Shown in pieces: positions 2,495 through 43,528 of a stretch of 64,000 bases of DNA. Numbering within the stretch: the first letter of the stretch is position 1; each line of letters begins with the position of its first letter. The translations under genes were made by a program, and so were the position numbers. The notes beneath the pieces are model-generated. The model did no database searches and was not told the origin of the DNA. It saw nothing but the letters and a program-made list of their open reading frames with translations. This DNA is from an uncultured Poribacteria bacterium. Lineage in GTDB: Bacteria > Poribacteria > WGA-4E > WGA-3G. The stretch is taken from positions 1,916,470 to 1,980,469 of the forward strand of contig OX639973.1 of assembly GCA_951828385.1 (NCBI GenBank). The letters are read 5' to 3'.

Positions 2495-2523
2495 TTGACA
2501 ATTTGAAACATTTCGGATACCCT
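2495..2523 (+). promoter_or_regulatory. trmJ promoter
   Basis: TTGACA at 2495-2500 is followed after 17 bases by TACCCT at 2518-2523. The ATG of trmJ at 2530 is only six bases after the -10 box, so the transcript would be essentially leaderless. A diverged copy with the same spacing lies at 5185-5213. Confidence 0.55.
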
Positions 2524-2529
2524 ATTGAT

Positions 2530-3351
2530 ATGTCAACAACCACTCAGAAAAAAACGATTCAACCGACCGGGAATTTCCGTGCTATTCCTGTTGAAGTACC
2601 GGAGAACCTCACCAACATCCGAGTTATCCTCTTTGAACCGCGCGAGCCCGGAAATATCGGCTCTGTCGCCAGAGTTGTCAAGGGCATGGGACTGTCGCAG
2701 CTGTATCTGGTAAATCCTGTTCCATTCCAAGATGTGGATGCAGCGTGGTATATGGCACACGGTGCGAAGGATATTCTCGAAAACTGCCACGTCGTCCTCG
2801 AACTGAAAGACGCGCTTGAGGGTATCCAATATCTGGTAGGGACAACACATCGTCGCAGAGATATACGTCTACCACAGCCTGTACCTGCGAAAGATGCAGC
2901 GCAGGCTATTGCCACAATTTCACAAGATAAGCAGGTCGCACTGCTATTCGGACGTGAAGATTTCGGTTTGTCTACCGATCAGATAAGCCTCTGCCAATTG
3001 ACAGCAAGCGTGCCGATGGCGACCAAAAACCCGTCTCTGAATCTCGCACAAGCCGTCCAAATCTTCGCGTATGAAGTCTTTGTCGCGAGCCTCGACGAGT
3101 ACCCGCCTTCCGAGATCGACTACGCCGAAGTAAACGCCTTGGAAGAGTTCTACGGACGCGTCACACGTCTGTTAGATAAGGTAGGCATGTCGCCGTATAA
3201 TCGGGAATGGGAAACGTATCTGAAATCGCTACGGCGCGTTTTCTCCCGTGCACCATTAGAATCAAGGGACATCGCCACACTGGACATGATTTTCTCTACA
3301 ACGTTTCGACACATTGAGCGTCTTGAGAAGAAGTTAGACGAGGATTGCTGA
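2530..3351 (+). CDS. trmJ: tRNA 2'-O-methyltransferase, TrmJ-like SPOUT family
   Basis: Predicted SAM-dependent methyltransferase that 2'-O-methylates tRNA in the cytoplasm, position 32 in characterised TrmJ. SpoU/TrmH family signatures are present in order: NIRVILFEPREPGNIGSVAR, a GTTHRRRD segment, LLFGREDFGLS and the knot-forming MATKNPSLNLAQAVQIFAYE. The 273-residue length fits TrmJ, with a typical helical C-terminal extension. The ATG at 2530 is preferred over the upstream TTG at 2503 because a promoter (2495-2523) overlaps the longer version. A fragment homologous to the first 21 residues recurs at 5221. Confidence 0.85.
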   Translation: MSTTTQKKTIQPTGNFRAIPVEVPENLTNIRVILFEPREPGNIGSVARVVKGMGLSQLYLVNPVPFQDVDAAWYMAHGAKDILENCHVVLELKDALEGIQYLVGTTHRRRDIRLPQPVPAKDAAQAIATISQDKQVALLFGREDFGLSTDQISLCQLTASVPMATKNPSLNLAQAVQIFAYEVFVASLDEYPPSEIDYAEVNALEEFYGRVTRLLDKVGMSPYNREWETYLKSLRRVFSRAPLESRDIATLDMIFSTTFRHIERLEKKLDEDC

Positions 3352-3357
3352 TTTTCA

Positions 3358-3409
3358 GTAGCATAGGAGACCGTTAGTTTCCTGTGTTTGTAGCATAGGA
3401 AACCGTTAG
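3358..3409. repeat. two 20-bp repeats in the trmJ-ATPase gap
   Basis: GTAGCATAGGAGACCGTTAG (3358-3377) recurs with one change at 3390-3409, a 32-base period. A related motif, GTAGCATAGACTGTTAGTCT, is found near 19067. These look like members of a short dispersed intergenic repeat; no function is visible. Confidence 0.7.
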
Positions 3410-3497
3410 CCTGTGCAGATGTTTGATGAAAACACTATGCGAAACGGACAGAAGCAGCCCAAACTTTAGTGAGATTAGGACGCAATAATTTAATTTC

Positions 3498-3506
3498 TGA
3501 TATAAT
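3498..3506 (+). promoter_or_regulatory. extended -10 promoter of the ATPase-nuclease gene
   Basis: TGATATAAT is a full extended -10 element. No good -35 box is visible 17 bases upstream, as expected when an extended -10 compensates. It lies 33 bases before the chosen ATG. Confidence 0.5.
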
Positions 3507-3538
3507 GTTATAACTTCTTGAACAGTGGTCATGGAAAA

Positions 3539-5134
3539 ATGAAAACATTTGGCACATACGGACCCGTGAATCCCCAAGAGAATTATGTCGTTTCACGCAC
3601 TGAGGAACTCGCCGATTTCATCAGTCGCGTCAAACAGGGACGATATATCGTTATCTTCGCGCCGCGACAAACGGGCAAAACCACATTTTTCCAATGGGCA
3701 CTTGACTCCCTCGCCGCCGATACCTCAGAAACCTACTTCCCCATCGAACTCAATTTTGAGGTATATGAAGACTATACTGCGTCCGATTTTTACGCCTCAC
3801 TCTATAAACGGATTTATGAGGAGATTAAGTGCGTCTTCCAGAAGCGCGGCATCGCGCCTTCCCAAGCCTTAAGTCAATTCTTAGAGGACACAAAGTTAAC
3901 AGACCACGTGGCGATGCTTGAATTCTTTCAAGAGTTCGCAAATTTTCTTGAAGGTGAGAAACTTGTCTTTATCATTGATGAATTTGATGGTATCCCGAGT
4001 GATGCCGTGAACGGTTTCCTTCATGCATTCCGTAATATCTATGTGCAGCGTTCTATGCGTAAATGTCCTTACAGCATCGGTATTGTAGGCGTGAAGGATA
4101 TTACACAACTCAACCTAAATCGCTCTATTTCGCCCTTCAATATCCAAGACGAGTTTACCCTGTCTAATTTCACGCTTGAACAGGTCCACGAATTGCTGGC
4201 ACAGTATACAGACGAAGTCGGTCAAGCGTTTGCTCCAGAAGTCACCGAAGCACTCTATAAACAAACTGGTGGACAACCCTTCCTCGTCAACCGATTCGCA
4301 CAGATTCTCACCGAGGAGATGGACATCCCGAAAACTGAAATGCTTACGATGACACACTTTTCAGAAGCACACACAGAAATTCGAGAAGAAGATAACGCAA
4401 ACCTTATGCATCTAATGACGAACATTCATAAGGACTTCCGTTTTAAAAATATCCTGATGGAGATCGTCTCTTACGAGAGAGGCGTGCGCTTTAACCCGCG
4501 TCGGGAAATTATTAGTCAACTTGCTACCTATGGAGTCATCGGAAAAGGCTCTGATGGTATGTGTCGAATTGTTAACCCGATCTATCACTATTGCATCCTG
4601 CAGGCGTTCAAACCAGAGATAAATGGATTGGAGCAGGAGTACTTTACTGAAAACATCAATTTCTTGGACTACCTCACACCCACAAGACAGATTAACATGG
4701 AACTGCTCCTTGACAACTTCCGAGCTTTCATTGCACGCGCAGGTTTCCGGATACTCCAAGTTCCTGAGACACCGAAAGAGTACGTAGGACAAGATCTCCT
4801 CTATGCCTATCTTGACCAGTTTATTAGTCTAATCGGCGGGACAATGTATCTTGAAGTTCAGACGGGACGTGGTAGGATGGACCTTGTCATCTTCCACAAT
4901 GCCAAAAAATACATTGTTGAGACCAAGATATGGGAGGGACCCCGGTCCTATCAGTCTGGCAAAAAACAACTCGCAGCATATCTCAAAATCGAGGGAGTAA
5001 GCGAAGGATACTACGTCGTCTTTGATCATCGTGCCGAGCCAGAACCCCGCATAGAAACAGAAACAATAGACGATTTGACAATCCGGAGCTACGTCATCCC
5101 CGTCGTCCAAGAAGCACCCTCACAACAAACATAG
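3539..5134 (+). CDS. AAA-like ATPase with C-terminal PD-(D/E)XK nuclease-type domain
   Basis: A 531-residue protein. The N-terminal half is a STAND-like AAA ATPase of the AAA-like/AAA_34 type: Walker A APRQTGKTT at residues 41-49 and Walker B LVFIIDEFDG near 142, then the sensor-like GGQPFLVNRFAQIL. The C-terminal 120 residues carry a PD-(D/E)XK-like core, RMDLVIF followed by YIVETKIW, with the expected D...ExK spacing. ATP-driven control of a nuclease domain is inferred from this architecture. The ATG at 3539 is preferred over TTG at 3518 because it begins just before the conserved part. It lies between trmJ and a duplicated trmJ 5' fragment and is probably accessory DNA. Many such proteins are uncharacterised, so a defence role is only a hypothesis. 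Confidence 0.75.
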   Translation: MKTFGTYGPVNPQENYVVSRTEELADFISRVKQGRYIVIFAPRQTGKTTFFQWALDSLAADTSETYFPIELNFEVYEDYTASDFYASLYKRIYEEIKCVFQKRGIAPSQALSQFLEDTKLTDHVAMLEFFQEFANFLEGEKLVFIIDEFDGIPSDAVNGFLHAFRNIYVQRSMRKCPYSIGIVGVKDITQLNLNRSISPFNIQDEFTLSNFTLEQVHELLAQYTDEVGQAFAPEVTEALYKQTGGQPFLVNRFAQILTEEMDIPKTEMLTMTHFSEAHTEIREEDNANLMHLMTNIHKDFRFKNILMEIVSYERGVRFNPRREIISQLATYGVIGKGSDGMCRIVNPIYHYCILQAFKPEINGLEQEYFTENINFLDYLTPTRQINMELLLDNFRAFIARAGFRILQVPETPKEYVGQDLLYAYLDQFISLIGGTMYLEVQTGRGRMDLVIFHNAKKYIVETKIWEGPRSYQSGKKQLAAYLKIEGVSEGYYVVFDHRAEPEPRIETETIDDLTIRSYVIPVVQEAPSQQT

Positions 5135-5184
5135 GACTTATGCAATTTAACAGAATTTAAAACTGAATATCCCGGCAGTTCCAC

Positions 5185-5287
5185 TTGACAATCTGGGCGA
5201 TTTGAGATACCCTATTAAGCATGTTAACAAACACCCACAAAAGTCCGATTCAAACCACGGAGAATTTTGGTGCAATTCCTGTAAAAT
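5185..5287 (+). pseudogene. duplicated trmJ promoter and 5' fragment
   Basis: TTGACA (5185-5190), 17 bases, TACCCT (5208-5213), then ATG at 5221 reading MLTNTHKSPIQTTENFGAIP. This matches the trmJ promoter and start (MSTTTQKKTIQPTGNFRAIP) in spacing, DNA and peptide. Similarity ends where the following PIN gene begins. The fragment probably now supplies the promoter for the PIN-DUF262 pair. Confidence 0.75.
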
Positions 5288-5299
5288 CAGAAGGATGTG

Positions 5300-5770
5300 A
5301 TGGAACAATCTACGCTATATCTCGATCTCAACCTTTATTGCCGTAATTTCAATGATCAAACACAACTTCGGATGTATAGTGAAGCGAGAGCAGTAGACAC
5401 TATCTTGAACCTAGCTAGCAGTCAGCGGTATAAAATCTATTGGTCTTACGTCCTTCAGACGGAAAACAATTTTAATCAAAATCTGGTTGAACGTCAAATT
5501 GTAATAAAGCAATCTACTTCTTCCTGTTTCTGTTCAATTATTCCAGCGGATGATATTCGCCGCTTAGCCGATCAGATTCAGACACTTTCATCAATTAGCA
5601 GGTACGATGCAGAACATATCGCATGTGCAGAACGCGCTGGCTGTGATTACTTGCTTACAGGCGATGATCGCCTCTTGAGGCAGTTCAATCGCTTAAAAGT
5701 GCAAAGAGTTTTGCCATTACAGGTCGTTCTCCAAAATCCTGTTGATTTTTTGACGAATCAATTTGAATAG
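5300..5770 (+). CDS. PIN-like domain protein
   Basis: A 156-residue protein with PIN-fold features: an early acidic LDLNLYCR segment, a central helical region, and a late DAEHIACAERAGCDYLLTGD motif that supplies the second acidic cluster. PIN proteins are usually metal-dependent RNases and often act as toxins. AGAAGG (5289-5294) sits six bases before the ATG at 5300; GTG at 5297 and ATG at 5295 are less well placed or out of frame. The gene ends 10 bases before the DUF262 gene, which suggests one operon. There is no small antitoxin gene next to it; the N-terminal helices of the next protein may take that place. A and T are more frequent than in the flanking housekeeping genes. Confidence 0.65.
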   Translation: MEQSTLYLDLNLYCRNFNDQTQLRMYSEARAVDTILNLASSQRYKIYWSYVLQTENNFNQNLVERQIVIKQSTSSCFCSIIPADDIRRLADQIQTLSSISRYDAEHIACAERAGCDYLLTGDDRLLRQFNRLKVQRVLPLQVVLQNPVDFLTNQFE

Positions 5771-5780
5771 GAAAAAGATT

Positions 5781-8297
5781 ATGACAGATAAAATACTTGA
5801 AAAAATCGAAGCAATCGCGAAAGCAGCAGGTGAGTCCCCCATTGAAGATGTGATGCATCGGGGTATAGATGCCCTTGAAAAAGAACTTGATCCAATTGAA
5901 GTTAGCAGATTTATTTCCGAATTACGACGGATGAAATCCGGTGTACTTGAAACCTCAGAAAAGATTATTAACAGTGAAACCAAAACAGTCCGAGAACTGC
6001 TTACCAATAGATACACTCTTGACTTCTATCAGCGTGAGTACAATTGGCAAAAAGGGCAAGTAGAAGAACTCCTTGATGACCTGACTAACAAATTTTTGGA
6101 GAACTACAAGGAGAATCACGACTATAAAGCGGTAGACGACTACACCCATTATTTTCTTGGGTCAATTGTCATCAGCAAAAACGATGAGACTAACGGACGG
6201 TACATTGTTGATGGACAACAGAGACTCACGACGTTGACTCTACTTCTCATTAACCTATACCGAATGTTTGATAATACTGAAGATAAACTTGATATGGCCA
6301 ACTTTATCTTCTCAGAAGAATTCGGAAAAATCTCCTTTAATTTGGATGTCCCAGAGCGGAATCGGTGCATGAAAGCTCTTTATGAAGGTGAAGGTTTTGA
6401 CGATAGTAAAGAGACGCAATCTATCCGCAACATCGTCGCATGCTCTGACTATATTAAAGGCAATTTTCCTGAGAAATTAGGAGGACAGGTCCTTCCACAT
6501 TTCGTCGATTGGTTACTTGATAAGGTTTATTTGGTAGAAATCATGGCCGTTGCCGACGACGATGCCTACACTATATTTGAGACAATGAATGACAGAGGTT
6601 TACCGCTTAGTCCTATTGATATGCTCAAAGGATACTTGCTAACCAAAATGACCAATGTCCGAAGAGACAGGGCAAACGAGACATGGCGTAACCGCATACA
6701 GGATTTGCACAATCTCGGCAAGGACGAGGCTGAAAACGCGATCAAAGCATGGCTGCGCAGTCAGCATGCCAGGAGACCTATCGATTTTGACTTAATTGGA
6801 AATAAATTCCACCGTTGGGTTCGTAACCAGGCAAGTGAATTGAGGCTTATATCAAGTGACAACTTCGCAGACTTCATCGAAAGAGATTTTGAATTTTATA
6901 GCAACTGGTATTACCGCTTGCAACAAGCGGCACGGTCCCTTACATTCAAATTTGAATGCGTTTATTACAATTCACAGCACAACTTCACGCTTCAATATCC
7001 AGTATTGTTAGCTCCATTACTAATAGGTGAATCGGAAGAAGAAAGTATTCGGAAGATACAGATCGTTGCTAGATATCTTGACATCTTGATTCATCGGTAC
7101 CTCTGGAATTATCGATCTATTCAGCAGAGCAGCATGGTTAAACCTATGTTTTCACTCATACGTGATATTCGAGGCAAAAACACCGGCGAATTGACTGAAT
7201 TGTTGTATGAGAAACTTGAGGAAGATAACCTAACTTTCGCGCATAATAGTCGGTATGGGTTGCAAGGCAATAAGCGTCCAAAGGTTCGCCTTGTACTTGC
7301 GCGTATAACAGATTACGTGGAAACCCAATCGGGACAAGATTCGCGTTATCAGGAGTACATAAAATACGATATTGAACATATCTGGGCAAATCATCCAGAA
7401 CTCCACGATGAAGAATTCGATCATGAGTATGATTTTCAGGAATATCGCGACCGCGTTGGTGGATTACTATTGCTGCCCCCAAAACGCAATAAAACTCTCA
7501 GCGATCTGTCTTATGAGGAAAAATTAGAGCACTATATTAAGGAGAACCTACTTGCGCAAAGTCTTCATAAGCGGACCTATGAGAGGAACCCCGGTTTTCG
7601 GGAGTTCATTCAAAAAAGCCATTTGTCCTTCCAGCCATGTTCCAGCTTTAACAAAGCAGATCTTGGTAACCGGCAAAAACTCTATCAACAACTTGCCAAG
7701 CGGATATGGAACCCAGAGAGGTTAAGAATACCTCATAGCGAGGAGCCGAAAATAACAGTTGATTTTGATAATGACCTCCAGCAAGGAACCGGAACTTCGG
7801 ACAAAGCGTGGACAATTGATCGGGTTAGAGAGCAAGTCCCTCAAGAACGTAAAGAGCACTACGAAACGCAGCATAAAAATAAAGTCGGAGTTATTTACGC
7901 TCAAGTTGCTGAACTCCAGAATTTAGTTGAAAAAAAAGGGTGGGATTTAAGTCCTAAATTCCAGAAATCTTACTGCGCTCTTTACATAGACCACAAACCT
8001 ATATTTGGTGTTAACTTTGATGGATCACCCCGATTTGCGGTTTGGATACCGAAGGAAGAGGCAGAAGGCCTAAGCAATCATTGTCAATTTGAGCGTTATT
8101 CCGATCCACATCGCCATGCTATTTATCCGTTATCCACATCAGTAGATGAGCTCCTCCCTATATTTGAAGCCGCTTACAATCAAATCAAGGGACTTCTTAG
8201 CGAAGAGCAGGTTCTAGCGAAAGTACGGCAGACCTTGCTTAATAGGGGTATGACAGAAGAAGAAATTGACGCGCTTTTTAACGGGATGAGTCCATGA
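5781..8297 (+). CDS. DUF262/DUF1524 (GmrSD-like) protein with extra C-terminal domain
   Basis: An 838-residue protein. Residues 60-300 contain the DUF262 ParB/sulfiredoxin-like NTPase signatures: QREYNW near 84, YFLGSIV and IVDGQQRLTTLTLL near 143, and FETMNDRGLPLSPIDMLKGY. The HNH-type DUF1524 nuclease follows around 525-600 (DIEHIWANH, then VGGLLLLPPKRNKTL). A further alpha/beta domain of about 150 residues at the C-terminus resembles DUF5655-type modules. GmrSD proteins are type IV restriction enzymes that cut modified phage DNA; that function is inferred from the family. The first 50 residues (HRGIDALEKELDPIEVSRFI) look like a small helical antitoxin-type peptide joined to DUF262. AGGAAAAA precedes the ATG at 5781. 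Confidence 0.85.
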   Translation: MTDKILEKIEAIAKAAGESPIEDVMHRGIDALEKELDPIEVSRFISELRRMKSGVLETSEKIINSETKTVRELLTNRYTLDFYQREYNWQKGQVEELLDDLTNKFLENYKENHDYKAVDDYTHYFLGSIVISKNDETNGRYIVDGQQRLTTLTLLLINLYRMFDNTEDKLDMANFIFSEEFGKISFNLDVPERNRCMKALYEGEGFDDSKETQSIRNIVACSDYIKGNFPEKLGGQVLPHFVDWLLDKVYLVEIMAVADDDAYTIFETMNDRGLPLSPIDMLKGYLLTKMTNVRRDRANETWRNRIQDLHNLGKDEAENAIKAWLRSQHARRPIDFDLIGNKFHRWVRNQASELRLISSDNFADFIERDFEFYSNWYYRLQQAARSLTFKFECVYYNSQHNFTLQYPVLLAPLLIGESEEESIRKIQIVARYLDILIHRYLWNYRSIQQSSMVKPMFSLIRDIRGKNTGELTELLYEKLEEDNLTFAHNSRYGLQGNKRPKVRLVLARITDYVETQSGQDSRYQEYIKYDIEHIWANHPELHDEEFDHEYDFQEYRDRVGGLLLLPPKRNKTLSDLSYEEKLEHYIKENLLAQSLHKRTYERNPGFREFIQKSHLSFQPCSSFNKADLGNRQKLYQQLAKRIWNPERLRIPHSEEPKITVDFDNDLQQGTGTSDKAWTIDRVREQVPQERKEHYETQHKNKVGVIYAQVAELQNLVEKKGWDLSPKFQKSYCALYIDHKPIFGVNFDGSPRFAVWIPKEEAEGLSNHCQFERYSDPHRHAIYPLSTSVDELLPIFEAAYNQIKGLLSEEQVLAKVRQTLLNRGMTEEEIDALFNGMSP

Positions 8298-8315: not shown

Positions 8316-11300
8316 GTGAAAAAAATGCGATACATTAAACCCATCGTTTGGCTCATCTTTATCTTTTCCGGTGCCAGCGGCCTCATCTATCAGGTCATCT
8401 GGATGCGGCAGCTCATGCTCATCTTCGGCAGCACTGTCTTCGCAACGAGTACCGTCCTCACAGCGTTCATGGGTGGGCTCGCGCTCGGCAGCTACTACTT
8501 CGGGAAGAAGATTGACGAAAGCACACAATCACCGTTACGGATTTACGCGCTGCTCGAAGCCGGTATTGGTGCGTTCTGCCTTGTCTGGCCACTGATCTTA
8601 ACCGTACTCGGCGCACTCTATGTCCTGATCCATCGCAATATCACATCAGAATTCTACACCCTCTCGCTCATTCGGTTCGTGTTAACGTTTGGTGTCCTGT
8701 TAATTCCATCTACATTGATGGGCGGCACTTTGCCAGTGCTGACCCGATTTTTTGTGAAAAGATTGGAACAACTCGGTACAAACATCGGGATCCTGTACGC
8801 ACTGAACACATTCGGCGCAGTCATCGGCACTGTGGCAGCAGGCTTTTTCCTGATTGAAGCGTTAGGTATCCGATGGACGCTCGGCGTTGGCATCGCTATC
8901 AATTTCGCAGTAGCAGTCATTGCCATAGTGTTAGCACGGAAAGCGTTAGCAACAGAAGCAGACGAACCTCAAGCAGAAACACAACAACTGGAGTCTGAAG
9001 ATGTCACGTATCAACCTGAGAGACTTCTGGTACTGTGGGCAATAGGTATCTCAGGTTTCTGTGCGCTGGCTTATGAGGTGTTATGGACCCGTATCATGGT
9101 CTTTTTCCTCGGTAGCACGACTTACGCGTTTGCGACGATGCTCGCGGCGTTCCTGTTCGGCATCGCTTTGGGAAGCATGGTGCTTGCGCGCTGGGTTGAT
9201 CGGATCAAACAGCCTATCGCAATTTTCGGGATCATCCAATTCGGTATCGGGCTGTTCGCGCTGATCCTGATGCCAGCGTTTGAAGGGTTATATGGGGTGA
9301 GCAGTGCGCTCCAATCTACCTTCGGGGCGAGCAGATTCTGGACTTTTTTCTCCTGTTTTCTCGTGATGTGTCTACCGACATTTCTGATGGGTGCAAGTTT
9401 TCCACTGGTAACGAAAATCTACACCGGCAGCGCACGCCAACTCGGCAAAAGCATCGGAAACGTCTACGCCGTTAACACAGTCGGAAGCATTTTAGGATCC
9501 TTCTGTGCAGGGTTTATTTTGATTCCGCTCTTGGGTATCCGTCCGAGTATTGTCTTAACAGTAGCCTTGAACTCAGGTATCGGATGCCTGCTTATTTTAA
9601 AAAGTAGGTGGCAGACCGAGACCGGAAAATCACTCCTACAAGGGATAGGCATCGGAATGCCGATCCTCAACGCCGGATTGGCTGTGATCCTGCTGCTCAC
9701 GGTGAACCAACCGCTTTTCCTGAAGAGCGCGATTTTCAAAACGCAACGCCCCGGCGATACACTGGTTGATTACAATGAAGAGGTGGATGCCACGGTAACA
9801 ACCTTAAAAGACGATGAAGGTGTCTATCGCCTCTATGTCGATACAAATCAGGCGGCGGATGCCTCGCGTTGGGATTCGCCATCGCATCGCGTCATCGCGC
9901 ATCTGCCGTTATTATTGCACCCGCGTCCGAAACGTGCACTCGTCGTCGGCTTCGGGATGGGACTCACCTCACATTCGATAACACAACACGGTGTAAAGGT
10001 TGATGCGATAGAGTTGTCCAGCGGTGTGCTCTCCGCAGCACAAAAGTATTTTACGCACGTCAACGAAAATGTGTTTGAAAACCCACTGTTTAACTACAAA
10101 CTCAACGATGGACGCAACCACATCCTAATGACGAAGACGAAATACGACATGATCTCGACAGGTATCATCCACCCGCTTGTCAGTGCTGGGAGTTCTAATA
10201 TCTACACTGCGGATTTTTACCGTTTGTGCCGCAAGATTCTCACAGAAGACGGTATCATGTGCCAATGGGTACCCTTGCATCGGCTGCCAGAAGCACACTA
10301 TAAAATGATTGTCCGTACGTTCATTGAGGTGTTCCCTGAGACAACGCTCTGGTATAAATATACACCCGATTTCGTGATTCTCATCGGTACCCGTGAACCG
10401 CTCCAAATCAATTACAAAAACTTCATTGACCGTGCCCAGATAGCGAGTATCCGCGAAGGGCTCGCCGCAGATGATTTGGACGGCATGTCGCTACTTGATT
10501 CATTTATGATGGGACCGGAAACAGTACACAAATACGTCGGTGTTGGACCGATCCATACAGACAATCGCCCTCGGTTGGAATTCTTCCGTGGCGCGGACCT
10601 TGTAGGTACAACAACGCAAAACGTCAAAGGCATGGCGAAATACCGAGAACGGGTACTGCCGTATCTCACAAACTATGGGGCAACACTGGTGGAGCAAAGA
10701 GCAACGCGTGAGAAATTGGATACCTACTTTAGAGCCACCGAGAAATTAATCCTTGGACAGATCGCTTATGCGAGTAGAAAATACCAAAATGCCGCTACCC
10801 TCATGAACGAAGCGGTCTTGACCAACCCCGCTGATGAGACAATCCGCTATAACTTCGGTGTCGTTGCTGGCTCAATTCGCGAAGGTGATCAGAATGAACT
10901 TCAGCGGATGCAGCAAGAGATCCAGCGGACAATGGCGCAAAATCCCGACGATATTGAGGGGCACCTGCATCTCGGAATCTTATATGAGAAGCAGGGTGAA
11001 CTTGCAAAAGCAGCACGGGAACTTGAAGAATTTCTCAGACATGAGCCGAGTCGATCGGATATCTACTTCATCCTGGGACCGCTTTATGAACGCCAAGGGC
11101 ACTACAAAGAAGCACTTCGCACATACAAGCGGTTAGAACAACAAGAATCTGAATTACCTATACCGATTCTCGCTGCGATGTCTCAACTCCACCTGATACT
11201 GGAAGATACGGATGAAGCCGAAAAATACGGACAAAAAGCCGTTGCAGTAGACCCCAATTCGTGGCGCGCCCATTATTTTCTCGGAAATGTTTACGCCGCC

Positions 11301-11453
11301 ACGGATCAACAGCAAAAACAGATAGAACACTATGACTACGCGTTAAACGCACTTGATAAAATCATCCAGAATACTCCAAATTCAAGTGATTTACAGAACT
11401 TACAGATTGAAAGACAACAGATCCAAAATGAACTTGATAAGTTGAAAAAATAA
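8316..11453 (+). CDS. multispanning membrane protein fused to spermidine synthase-like and TPR domains
   Basis: A 1045-residue protein with three parts. Residues 1-470 hold about 13 hydrophobic helices in two similar halves (each with a FSGASGLIYQVIW or SGFCALAYEVLWTR type start and an STLMGGTLP or PTFLMGASFP motif). Residues 530-720 form a spermidine synthase-like Rossmann fold (RALVVGFGMGLTSHS, DAIELSSGVL, DGRNHILMTKTKYDMIS). Residues 780-1045 are TPR repeats. The family is common in uncultured bacteria; substrate and product are unknown, and a true polyamine synthase role is doubtful because the domain is membrane-tethered. GTG at 8316 and ATG at 8325 are both possible starts and neither has a strong ribosome site. 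The gene follows the DUF262 gene by 18 bases but its G+C-richer codon use matches the housekeeping genes. Confidence 0.85.
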   Translation: MKKMRYIKPIVWLIFIFSGASGLIYQVIWMRQLMLIFGSTVFATSTVLTAFMGGLALGSYYFGKKIDESTQSPLRIYALLEAGIGAFCLVWPLILTVLGALYVLIHRNITSEFYTLSLIRFVLTFGVLLIPSTLMGGTLPVLTRFFVKRLEQLGTNIGILYALNTFGAVIGTVAAGFFLIEALGIRWTLGVGIAINFAVAVIAIVLARKALATEADEPQAETQQLESEDVTYQPERLLVLWAIGISGFCALAYEVLWTRIMVFFLGSTTYAFATMLAAFLFGIALGSMVLARWVDRIKQPIAIFGIIQFGIGLFALILMPAFEGLYGVSSALQSTFGASRFWTFFSCFLVMCLPTFLMGASFPLVTKIYTGSARQLGKSIGNVYAVNTVGSILGSFCAGFILIPLLGIRPSIVLTVALNSGIGCLLILKSRWQTETGKSLLQGIGIGMPILNAGLAVILLLTVNQPLFLKSAIFKTQRPGDTLVDYNEEVDATVTTLKDDEGVYRLYVDTNQAADASRWDSPSHRVIAHLPLLLHPRPKRALVVGFGMGLTSHSITQHGVKVDAIELSSGVLSAAQKYFTHVNENVFENPLFNYKLNDGRNHILMTKTKYDMISTGIIHPLVSAGSSNIYTADFYRLCRKILTEDGIMCQWVPLHRLPEAHYKMIVRTFIEVFPETTLWYKYTPDFVILIGTREPLQINYKNFIDRAQIASIREGLAADDLDGMSLLDSFMMGPETVHKYVGVGPIHTDNRPRLEFFRGADLVGTTTQNVKGMAKYRERVLPYLTNYGATLVEQRATREKLDTYFRATEKLILGQIAYASRKYQNAATLMNEAVLTNPADETIRYNFGVVAGSIREGDQNELQRMQQEIQRTMAQNPDDIEGHLHLGILYEKQGELAKAARELEEFLRHEPSRSDIYFILGPLYERQGHYKEALRTYKRLEQQESELPIPILAAMSQLHLILEDTDEAEKYGQKAVAVDPNSWRAHYFLGNVYAATDQQQKQIEHYDYALNALDKIIQNTPNSSDLQNLQIERQQIQNELDKLKK

Positions 11454-13633: not shown

Positions 13634-13732
13634 ATAAGTCTGGTTTTTGATCGACCAATATTTTTTTGTCACGCTTGTTGTGCTTATAGGTAATGGCGGT
13701 TACAAAGAGATGATAGACCATCAGAACCCTCT

Positions 13733-13858
13733 TATAGTGAAGCCCATAAATAAGTGGACATCTTCGTAGCACATACTTCCAGTTTGTGCCAGTCTGAATG
13801 CCTGTTATAGGTATTCAGACTGTTTGAGAGTGCCCAATTAATTCTAAACTTTACTATA
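13733..13858. repeat. 126-bp MITE, copy A
   Basis: Begins TATAGTGAA and ends ACTATA, with imperfect inverted termini about 30 bases long. The centre contains two hairpins: an ACTTCCAGT stem inside a CACA/TGTG frame, and AGTCTGAAT paired with ATTCAGACT. Copies B (35909) and C (43403) have exactly the same length. The TA at each end suggests Tc1/mariner-IS630-type insertion. Confidence 0.85.
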
Positions 13859-13902
13859 ACTTATAACCAACAACTGACAACTCTTTCAAAGGAGATAGCA
13901 CG

Positions 13903-17600: not shown

Positions 17601-18961
17601 ATATCGGTGCATCGCTGGCTGCTGCTACGGGTATGGAGGGTAACATCGTTTATGGTTGTATCTTCGTGGACTCACCGAGGCATCAGGAAACGACGCTGTT
17701 CGTCCCTGATGGCTACAGGATAAAGGTCTGGTTCAACGGTGTTTTGTTACACCACGGTTGGCGTACGCTTGGTGGTGGAAGCAGACCGGATTACATAAAT
17801 TTCGTCCCTGTTACGTTGAAAGCTGGGAAAAATGTCTTGTTATTCGGGGCTTCTAACGGTGGGGACAGTGACGGCTCTTTTGGATTTGCTCCTGGCACAG
17901 AATACACCGCATCTATCCGCGGTATGGAATACACGTTCTCTCATCCAGAAATCTATATCGGTGATACCTTCACTCTCGACCTCAGCGCAAGAAATGTAAT
18001 TGATTTAGCAGGTTGGCAATTTGATATTGCCTTCGACCCCGCGGTGCTTGAAGCCGTTGAAGTCAACGAAGGCGATTTTCTCAAGGAAGGAGGCGGAACG
18101 ACCTTCTTCCAAAAAGGAACAATTGATAACACGACAGGCAAGATTACCAAACTCAGTTCTGCGAGGCTCAACGAAGACGGTGTCAGCGGCACAGGCACGC
18201 TGCTGTCAGTGACTTTCTCAGCGAAGGCGGGTGGCGAAACCCAATTATCACTGCACAACTTCCAATTGGGTTCTATCACGGGTGAGATTATCAACGCTGG
18301 ACCACACGAGTTTGCCTTCACTATAGAAGGACAACTCGCTACCGGAGACGTAAACCGAGACGGACAAGTGAGTGTCCTGGATCTGATCCTTGTCGCACGA
18401 TACCTCGGTGAAGACGCATTTGCGAACCCGCAGGCAGACGTTAATAACGATGGCGTGATCAACATCCAAGACCTCATCCTCGTCGCACAACACCTTGGTG
18501 AATCAACTGCTTCCGCTGCGCCTTCCGTTATCACAATAAATAACGGAGAACTAACGCCAGCGATAGTCCAAGCATGGATAACACAAGCACAAATTGAAGA
18601 CGATGGCTCCATTGCCTTCCAACAAGGCATCGCCACTCTTGAACGACTGCTAACACTGTTCATCCCAGAAGAAACCGCTTTACTCCACAACTATCCAAAC
18701 CCGTTCAATCCAGAGACATGGATACCGTATCAACTCGCCGAACTAGCAGAAGTTACCTTGACCATTCATTCTGTAAATGGAACTCTGGTCCGGACGTTGG
18801 CATTAGGCTATCAATCTGCTGGCATCTACCAAACCCGCACCCGTGCCGCATATTGGGACGGAAAAAATCAGGTCGGCGAACCCGTCGCAAGTGGTATCTA
18901 TTTTTATACACTCACAGCAGGCGATTTCAACGCCACCCGAAAAATGTTAATAAGGAAATAG
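14639..18961 (+). CDS. secreted cytochrome c, LRR, cohesin, dockerin and sorting-tail protein
   Basis: A 1440-residue exported protein. Its start is ATG 14639, nine bases after GGAG in the upstream stop region, followed by signal peptide VKIGKYLPIVILICIGFGFA. A planctomycete-type cytochrome c module carries CLNCH at residues 41-45; a second heme motif, CIGCH, lies near 406. Residues 578-910 are leucine-rich repeats of internalin type (NNISDISPLAGLTQLE repeated about ten times). A jelly-roll-like region is followed by a cohesin-like domain at about 1100-1228 (IDLAGWQFDIAFDPAVLE), a type I dockerin at 1234-1290 with two calcium loops (GDVNRDGQVSVLDLILVARY, DVNNDGVINIQDLILVAQHL) and a C-terminal type IX-like sorting tail (NYPNPFNPETWIPYQL to the final RKMLIRK). 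Having both cohesin and dockerin modules suggests self-association on the cell surface. Electron transfer is inferred from the heme motifs only. Confidence 0.85.
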   Translation: MVKIGKYLPIVILICIGFGFATADAQENLAQQASAIFQQNCLNCHGPSGSHKEALLIDRNALVDTKVVIPGDPGNSEFYKRLLGPTENGPQMPLNLPPLSPEAVETVARWITTGAPDWDVQHDINFITTDAILDTIRNHLDSLDPFDRPSARYFTMTHLYNAGETPETLSDYRIALSKLINSLSWKLEITNPIPIDAAQTIFYIDLRRYKWNTTTDVWPQIEQVYPYNIAFDPETQAGLLEKLTQLQTETGSTVPFVHIDWFLATASLPPLYHDILGLPETDSVLEAQLGVNVASHITDAPGIDVWRAGFNDSGVSENNRVVERHTSSYGAYWKSYDFAGNVGSQNIFTHPLDFTHDGGEIIFNLPNGLQAYLLVDAKGNRLNDAPINIVSNPVASDPTVKNGLSCIGCHTQGMKTFKDSVRAAIEQDDNPPYNKAHALRLYPEQSVLDDLLQKDTERFQQALEKIGGPFADDASRQRFFKHHENEPVQRFHELFQAPLSASDAAAAVGLETEAFLAQIREKQSLKNLGLQTLTDVNGTVKRDAWTSNFDQMISALNTPDSTLPPVVQRPELIPGQSVNIPDPNLRTAIAEALGKASGDTITAEEMATLTRLVATYKQIQNLGGIQFATGLEHLDLQKNNISDISPLAGLTQLEALYLDGNNISDVSPLAGLTKLETLLIRGDTNNRGPHTNYISDISSLAGLMQLKKLWLSGNNISDLSPLVGLTQLTSLTLDGNNISDVSLLAGLIELTSLSLENNNISDFSPLVGLTKLEWLVFDVAYDNLSTLPESIAKLQRSLYFSQHDPPISDLSPLARFTGLRILYLDNNNISDVSPLAELTELFALGLSNNNISDISPLAGLTKLSFSLNLDNNNISDVSPLTGLTGLRELLLRQNNISDISPLKAIREKTGNVLWYHNPGFPEGGPKIEGPWLWVAVPGQQDDWRRGADFLARASGNTVTQVGIATTGATVGSSVGENVWTPHKVEGHDIGASLAAATGMEGNIVYGCIFVDSPRHQETTLFVPDGYRIKVWFNGVLLHHGWRTLGGGSRPDYINFVPVTLKAGKNVLLFGASNGGDSDGSFGFAPGTEYTASIRGMEYTFSHPEIYIGDTFTLDLSARNVIDLAGWQFDIAFDPAVLEAVEVNEGDFLKEGGGTTFFQKGTIDNTTGKITKLSSARLNEDGVSGTGTLLSVTFSAKAGGETQLSLHNFQLGSITGEIINAGPHEFAFTIEGQLATGDVNRDGQVSVLDLILVARYLGEDAFANPQADVNNDGVINIQDLILVAQHLGESTASAAPSVITINNGELTPAIVQAWITQAQIEDDGSIAFQQGIATLERLLTLFIPEETALLHNYPNPFNPETWIPYQLAELAEVTLTIHSVNGTLVRTLALGYQSAGIYQTRTRAAYWDGKNQVGEPVASGIYFYTLTAGDFNATRKMLIRK

Positions 18962-19914: not shown

Positions 19915-20283
19915 GTGGCAAACAATGGATCGATCGCCTTCCAACAAGGCATTGCCACTCTTGAATGGCTGCTAACACTGTTCATTCCAGAAGAAACCGC
20001 TTTACTCCACAACTATCCAAACCCGTTCAATTCAGAGACATGGATACCGTATCAACTCGCCGAATCCGCAGAAGTTACCTTGACTATTCATGCTGTGAAT
20101 GGAACTTTGGTCCGAACTTTAGCGTTAGGGCACCAACCCGCTGGAATCTACCAAACCCACACTCGTGCCGCGTATTGGGACGGCAAAAATGACGTAGGCG
20201 AATCGGTCGCAAGTGGTGTCTACTTCTATACACTCACAGCAGGCGATTTCAACGCCACCCGAAAAATGTTGATTAGGAAGTAG
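19915..20283 (+). pseudogene. duplicated C-terminal sorting tail of the 14639-18961 protein
   Basis: Translates to a 122-residue fragment almost identical to the last 117 residues of the large upstream protein, from GSIAFQQGIATLE through NYPNPFNSETWIPYQL to RKMLIRK. It lacks any N-terminal export signal or domain. At DNA level the match runs from about 18606 to 18961 against 19926 to 20283. The PIN pair lies between the two copies. Most likely a remnant of a duplicated or rearranged gene; a GTG at 19915 could still start a peptide. Confidence 0.8.
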
Positions 20284-35855: not shown

Positions 35856-35908
35856 ACGAACCTACTGTATATCTGAAAAAACGGGTGTGTAAAGTTTTGA
35901 AGCGCGAT

Positions 35909-36034
35909 TATAGTGAATCCTAAAAATAAATAGACACATTCGTACCACAAACTTCCAGTTTGTGCCAGTCTGAATGCCTGTTATAGGTATTCAGACTGTT
36001 TGAGAGTGCCCAATTAATTATAGGTTTTACTATA
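35909..36034. repeat. 126-bp MITE, copy B
   Basis: Same ends and length as copies A and C, with about ten changes. It sits between the helicase and methylase genes, so it interrupts what looks like a functional pair and may carry or block their transcription. Confidence 0.85.
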
Positions 36035-43275: not shown

Positions 43276-43402
43276 TTTACCTCTTAGAAACCGATTGTCC
43301 ACGAAACCCAAAAAAAATAACGTATAGTTAATTTTTGGGACTTACGCAGACAGGCGATAAAGGATTCCCTTACAACAAGTGGATGTCTACCATTTGGATA
43401 TT

Positions 43403-43528
43403 TATAGTGAATCCTAAAAATAAATAGACACATTCGTAGCACAAACTTCCAGTTTGTGCCAGTCTGAATGCCTGTTATAGGTATTCAGACTGTTTGAGAG
43501 TGCCCAATTAATTCTAAACTTTACTATA
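43403..43528. repeat. 126-bp MITE, copy C
   Basis: Nearly identical to copy B over its first 110 bases and identical to copy A at the right end. A single end of the other MITE family (GGGACTTACGCA) lies just upstream at 43337, probably truncated. Confidence 0.85.

Follow-up and report, generated by a model that had tools for sequence, protein, structure and literature searches.

Integrative elements that insert at the 5′ ends of dusA or prfC replace the promoter end of the gene (PMC8409611). The locus described here resembles them in that the 5′ end and the promoter of a tRNA-modification gene, trmJ, are present twice around other genes. On the other hand, elements of the dusA/prfC type have the truncated 5′ remnant on their upstream side and the intact or restored gene on the other, whereas here the remnant lies downstream of the intact trmJ; in addition, no integrase was seen here and most of the cargo at this site is found without the remnant. 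A limited literature search turned up no paper that describes trmJ as a defence hotspot.

Two other kinds of described systems are similar to parts of the locus. In partial, 5′-end gene duplication scars, through which a housekeeping promoter is recruited, a resident gene's promoter and its first codons are copied to a place before another gene, the coding part decays and the promoter is kept. Our case differs from them in that the scar is carried from lineage to lineage, at a single locus, together with a toxin-antitoxin/restriction block, and in that the duplication step itself is unseen. The other kind is the PIN (VapC-like) toxin-antitoxin pair, which the locus resembles in that a small antitoxin-like gene comes after PIN, as it also does for paralogs in the same genome. 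Here, however, the toxin gene comes first, Pfam recognises no domain in it, and a DUF262 protein of the GmrSD-like type has the antitoxin-like part fused to it.

We examined a stretch of 64,000 nucleotides, referred to as the window, from an uncultured symbiont belonging to the sponge-associated Poribacteria (genome G000), and compared it with its relatives in a set of 38 genus members. The genes are arranged in the order LamG-domain protein, trmJ, AAA_35 ATPase, a copy of the trmJ front end (hereafter the fragment), PIN, DUF262 gene, SpdS and aspS, the last being named from sequence (Table 1).

Table 1. Features of the trmJ-SpdS region, in positions of the window
Feature	Position	Strand	Basis and remarks
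trmJ promoter and ATG	2495..2532	+	TTGACA 2495-2500, N17, TACCCT 2518-2523, ATG 2530; conserved before trmJ in aligned genus members
Intact trmJ, tRNA Nm32 methyltransferase family	2530..3351	+	Pfam SpoU_methylase 1.4e-26; NCBIfam TIGR00050 3.4e-55
AAA_35 ATPase with C-terminal PD-(D/E)XK-like motif	3539..5134	+	Pfam AAA_35 6.3e-17; PD-(D/E)XK by sequence reading only
Copied trmJ promoter (putative)	5185..5223	+	TTGACA 5185-5190, N17, TACCCT 5208-5213, ATG 5221; aligned to trmJ
Decayed first trmJ codons, relic, non-coding	5224..5282	+	joint with PIN leader near 5282
PIN-type gene, likely toxin nuclease	5291..5770	+	AAGGA 5291-5295, ATG 5300, stop 5770; conserved acidic residues
~60-aa antitoxin-like domain, N-terminus of DUF262 protein	5781..5966	+	free-standing ORF in most relatives having it
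DUF262/DUF1524 (GmrSD-like) restriction-type protein	5967..8297	+	Pfam GmrSD_N 7.7e-34, GmrSD_C 3.4e-09; PADLOC HEC-06 7.9e-43
MFS/spermidine synthase-TPR gene (SpdS)	8334..11453	+	conserved right border of the gap; NCBIfam MFS_SpdSyn

The trmJ front end and its copy before the PIN gene

When the trmJ region was compared to the window by blastn, positions 2495-2591 matched 5185-5282 over 98 bp, with an identity of 75.5% (E = 7e-13), and the local alignment of the pair scored 49, against no more than 17 across 1000 shuffles. The match covers TTGACA-N17-TACCCT, the ATG, which follows the −10 box by 6–7 nt in both copies, and the recognisable first codons of trmJ, and it ends ~18 bp before the PIN ATG. 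The repeat of the trmJ promoter and N-terminus that had been pointed out in a sequence-only reading of the window is thus a true copy, and the ATPase gene does lie between the two trmJ starts, with the PIN and DUF262 genes after the fragment. That reading also had the fragment changing into the PIN gene, which proved wrong: PIN has its own start codon and ribosome-binding site, in a frame that differs from that of the fragment ATG. Nor is what it called the truncated trmJ start an open trmJ N-terminus in most of the other carriers, where it is interrupted by indels or early stops.

Both copies carry −35 and −10 boxes; nevertheless, chance promoter similarity, which the sequence-only reading had itself raised, has practically no probability in view of the length of the match, its E value of about 1e-13, the shuffle scores and a similar match in four further genomes. 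A mobile promoter-bearing, MITE-like repeat, inserted both at trmJ and at PIN, is just as hard to credit: although the genome does contain another dispersed repeat with more than 40 copies, the homology seen here includes trmJ codons and is confined to this one parent gene, and no third copy was found in the whole genome (one contig of 6,656,312 bases). Throughout the 38 genomes, only trmJ starts and five fragments were seen, each carrier having one of each, apart from a single 22-bp match, and a dispersed promoter repeat was rejected on this ground.

The other dispersed repeat, of ~127 bp, occurs in the window at 13732-13864, 35908-36034 and 43402-43528 (90–96% identical); its copies in the genome of the window are near full length (92–97%) and MITE- or REP-like.

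Contents of the gap between trmJ and SpdS

trmJ was detected in 34 of the 36 genus members first searched and in two more, with one close copy in nearly every member, and SpdS and aspS come after it wherever the contigs extend that far. The gap between them is empty in three genomes (G012, G028 and G030), holds only the ATPase gene in many, and in others holds the ATPase gene and a small antitoxin-like gene, some of these having a DUF262 gene as well. PIN and antitoxin genes with neither ATPase nor fragment were found in G007, in which the spacer still reads as the final bases of the ATPase gene, and in G021; in G017 and G035 only the tail of the PIN gene is left. As the PIN-antitoxin pair of G021 sits directly behind trmJ, use of the trmJ promoter is a natural alternative there. 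Hidden remnants of the fragment were undetectable in the fragment-free PIN loci of G007 and G021 (shuffle p 0.06–0.99). The ATPase is resident after trmJ in most members, and its family has 22 copies in the genome of the window and 3–27 per genus member (mostly 63–68% identical), an unusual expansion of an ATPase-nuclease family.

The order ATPase-fragment-PIN-antitoxin was found in five genomes (G000, G010, G029, G020 and G026), being reconstructed for G020 and G026, whose assemblies break at insertion-sequence-like ends within it. Since these ends lie in or next to the ATPase gene, the gene order in both is most likely the same as in the other carriers, and we rejected the idea that their fragment is located away from trmJ. 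On either side of the contig break in G020 (L055 8540-8602; L056 reverse strand, first 55 bases) are the inverted repeats GAGCCATTCAGTTTTC of an insertion sequence, which is situated immediately before the fragment promoter and shows what looks like a target duplication, ATATCCCCGCA. For G026, the two contig ends, which fall inside the start of the ATPase gene (L058 8050-8133; L057 1-60), bear GCTTTAGCT hairpin-like ends, which resemble an IS200/IS605-type insertion.

The gap is a variable locus, and a hotspot in the loose sense that its flanks are conserved and its contents differ. The sequence-only reading went further and proposed that elements integrate at the 5′ end of trmJ, each bringing or regenerating the promoter end, so that variable cargo would be bounded by trmJ 5′ fragments. 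Such elements are known at dusA, where they replace the promoter and the N-terminus (PMC8409611), and the variability of the gap and the insertion sequences that hit it in G020, and probably in G026, would fit; however, the order of intact trmJ, ATPase, remnant and PIN is the reverse of a 5′-end integration, no integrase gene is present between trmJ and SpdS (only the ATPase, PIN and DUF262 genes), and the fragment is not particularly close to any one trmJ. The comparison of neighbourhoods speaks against it as well, as ~30 other genus members have no fragment at all, whether their gap is empty or holds ATPase, ATPase and a small ORF, ATPase and DUF262, or PIN and antitoxin. Both the geometry and the gene content led us to reject an integrase-type insertion into the 5′ end, and a general insertion hotspot at the trmJ 5′ end, which we regard as improbable, is not supported.

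Origin, movement and retention of the fragment

In all five carriers the fragment has the ATPase gene before it and the PIN gene after it, and its right-hand joint is identical, which shows a single origin of the fragment. The fragments form one group, with 81–95% identity to each other and about 70–81% to every trmJ (averages of 72–80%), and none is closest to the trmJ of its own genome. As they are about equally distant from all trmJ genes, the copy is old, and the fragment in the window does not stem freshly from the trmJ of this genome.

In the tree of trmJ, SpdS and aspS, G026 is placed far from the clade of the window and from the other carriers, and at 4-fold sites these three genes differ between G026 and the clade of the window by 0.43–0.52, while PIN differs by only 0.20–0.31 and the antitoxin part with the DUF262 core by 0.15–0.31. 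Between G026 and its neighbour G007 the pattern is the opposite, with 0.52 for PIN and 0.32 for SpdS. The lower divergence of PIN, antitoxin and DUF262 shows their co-transfer, and the block of fragment, PIN, antitoxin and DUF262 was thus exchanged horizontally within the genus at the same site; the fragment travels with PIN and DUF262, with which the sequence-only reading had associated it. PIN relatives elsewhere in these genomes are just about 30–49% identical, and so no examined strain has this PIN-DUF262 pair at another site, an arrangement which, if the fragment were absent, the earlier reading had named as refuting its proposal. A separate replacement, by another allele, was seen in the ATPase of G000, which is 77% identical to those of its sisters at the protein level, whereas the sisters are 94–96% identical to each other. 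The replaced tract ends near 4870, within the ATPase gene and not at the fragment, and the fragment was thus rejected as a recombination boundary.

Indels or stops interrupt the frame that begins at the copied ATG in 3 of the 5 carriers (G029, G026 and G020), and a conserved leader peptide was rejected for this reason. Between G000 and G029, the fragment region is ~0.86 identical, about the rate of change of the PIN 4-fold sites (0.14 different). The broken frames show a dead coding relic, which would seem to have decayed neutrally.

The promoter part has fared differently from the codons next to it. Over the five genomes, 5 of 39 promoter columns are variable, compared with 27 of the 78 columns that follow the ATG (Fisher p 0.015), and G000 and G029 differ at 0 of 39 and 15 of 67 positions, respectively (p 0.0009), although the constraint is modest over the whole set, the pairs without G000 are individually non-significant, and the pairs share ancestry among five partly related carriers. 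The −35 box, the spacing and the −10 box are intact directly upstream of PIN in all five, in agreement with the promoter copy noted in the first reading; the sigma-70 scan does not list this promoter, and its −10 TACCCT is far from the consensus. Nearly invariant promoter columns beside decayed codons fit a dead gene start with a living, putative promoter, and most likely the fragment survives as a borrowed switch for the PIN module.

Perhaps the scar is functionless, and PIN and antitoxin are transcribed by read-through or from a promoter of their own. The neutral coding part, the few and partly related carriers and the persistence of PIN modules without the fragment in G021 and G007, where the copied promoter is evidently dispensable, would agree with this; still, we consider it unlikely, given how much less variable the promoter is than the adjacent relic and that its elements are intact in every carrier.

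The PIN module and a proposed history of the locus

No Pfam domain was matched in the PIN gene product, and its predicted structure, built from just 3 sequences, has a pLDDT of 43; however, the acidic residues D9, E55, D103, D116, D122 and D123 are invariant in the alignment with its paralogs. Elsewhere in the genus, the paralogs of PIN have small antitoxin-like genes as partners, and the 60-aa part following PIN occupies the same position as these partners. In most relatives possessing it, this part is a free-standing ORF of 52–74 aa, whereas in four genomes it is fused to the GmrSD-like DUF262 protein, in which both the DUF262 and DUF1524 domains of this group of restriction enzymes are present. 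As judged from these pairings, PIN and the 60-aa part are probably a toxin-antitoxin pair, here fused with a restriction-type protein. A scan of viral contigs returned no relatives of PIN.

The history that we consider probable is a one-time duplication scar of trmJ, which has been retained to serve a toxin-antitoxin/restriction module as its promoter. In a single event within this genus, the front of a second copy of trmJ (promoter and ~20 codons) would have been left between the ATPase gene and the PIN-antitoxin module. Most likely, either the trmJ region was duplicated, in tandem or by merging of alleles, and the body of the second trmJ was then deleted, or the front end alone gave rise to a short ectopic copy; both options are kept, as no intermediate that has a longer second trmJ was found to distinguish them. 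The copied coding part would then decay neutrally, and the promoter may have been retained because it transcribes PIN, antitoxin and DUF262 independently of the ATPase gene ahead. Later, the block passed from one lineage to another without a change of site, and the conserved flanks probably allowed this by homologous recombination. The duplication-then-deletion step and recombination as the vehicle are what we infer from the present arrangement.

Position 32, which TrmJ methylates, lies in the anticodon loop of tRNAs, and this loop is often cut by PIN toxins of the VapC kind. Co-expression of the two may thus be kept, and PIN under the trmJ promoter could represent a functional co-regulation of toxin and modifying enzyme, which would hold both for the PIN directly behind trmJ in G021 and for those behind the copied promoter in five genomes; we regard this as highly improbable. 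The duplication scar, which we prefer, is unusual, yet in essence gene shuffling leaves such scars ordinarily. Its five carriers and more than 30 relatives make it a well-resolved case in which a toxin-antitoxin/restriction block would have gained a housekeeping promoter and moved with it between lineages, and it corrects the idea of trmJ 5′ fragments as general marks of insertion sites.

Other observations were made around trmJ and elsewhere in the window. In nearly all genus members, the ATG of trmJ comes just 5–6 nt after the end of the −10 box (2518-2530 in the window), and this short distance suggests that the trmJ mRNA is probably leaderless and points to leaderless mRNA in Poribacteria. 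Four tandem copies of GTAGGGGCTGGGTTACC lie between the LamG gene and trmJ (2405-2475), with one or few in some relatives, and a direct repeat of 362 bp, 89% identical, was found at 18600-18961 and 19922-20283.
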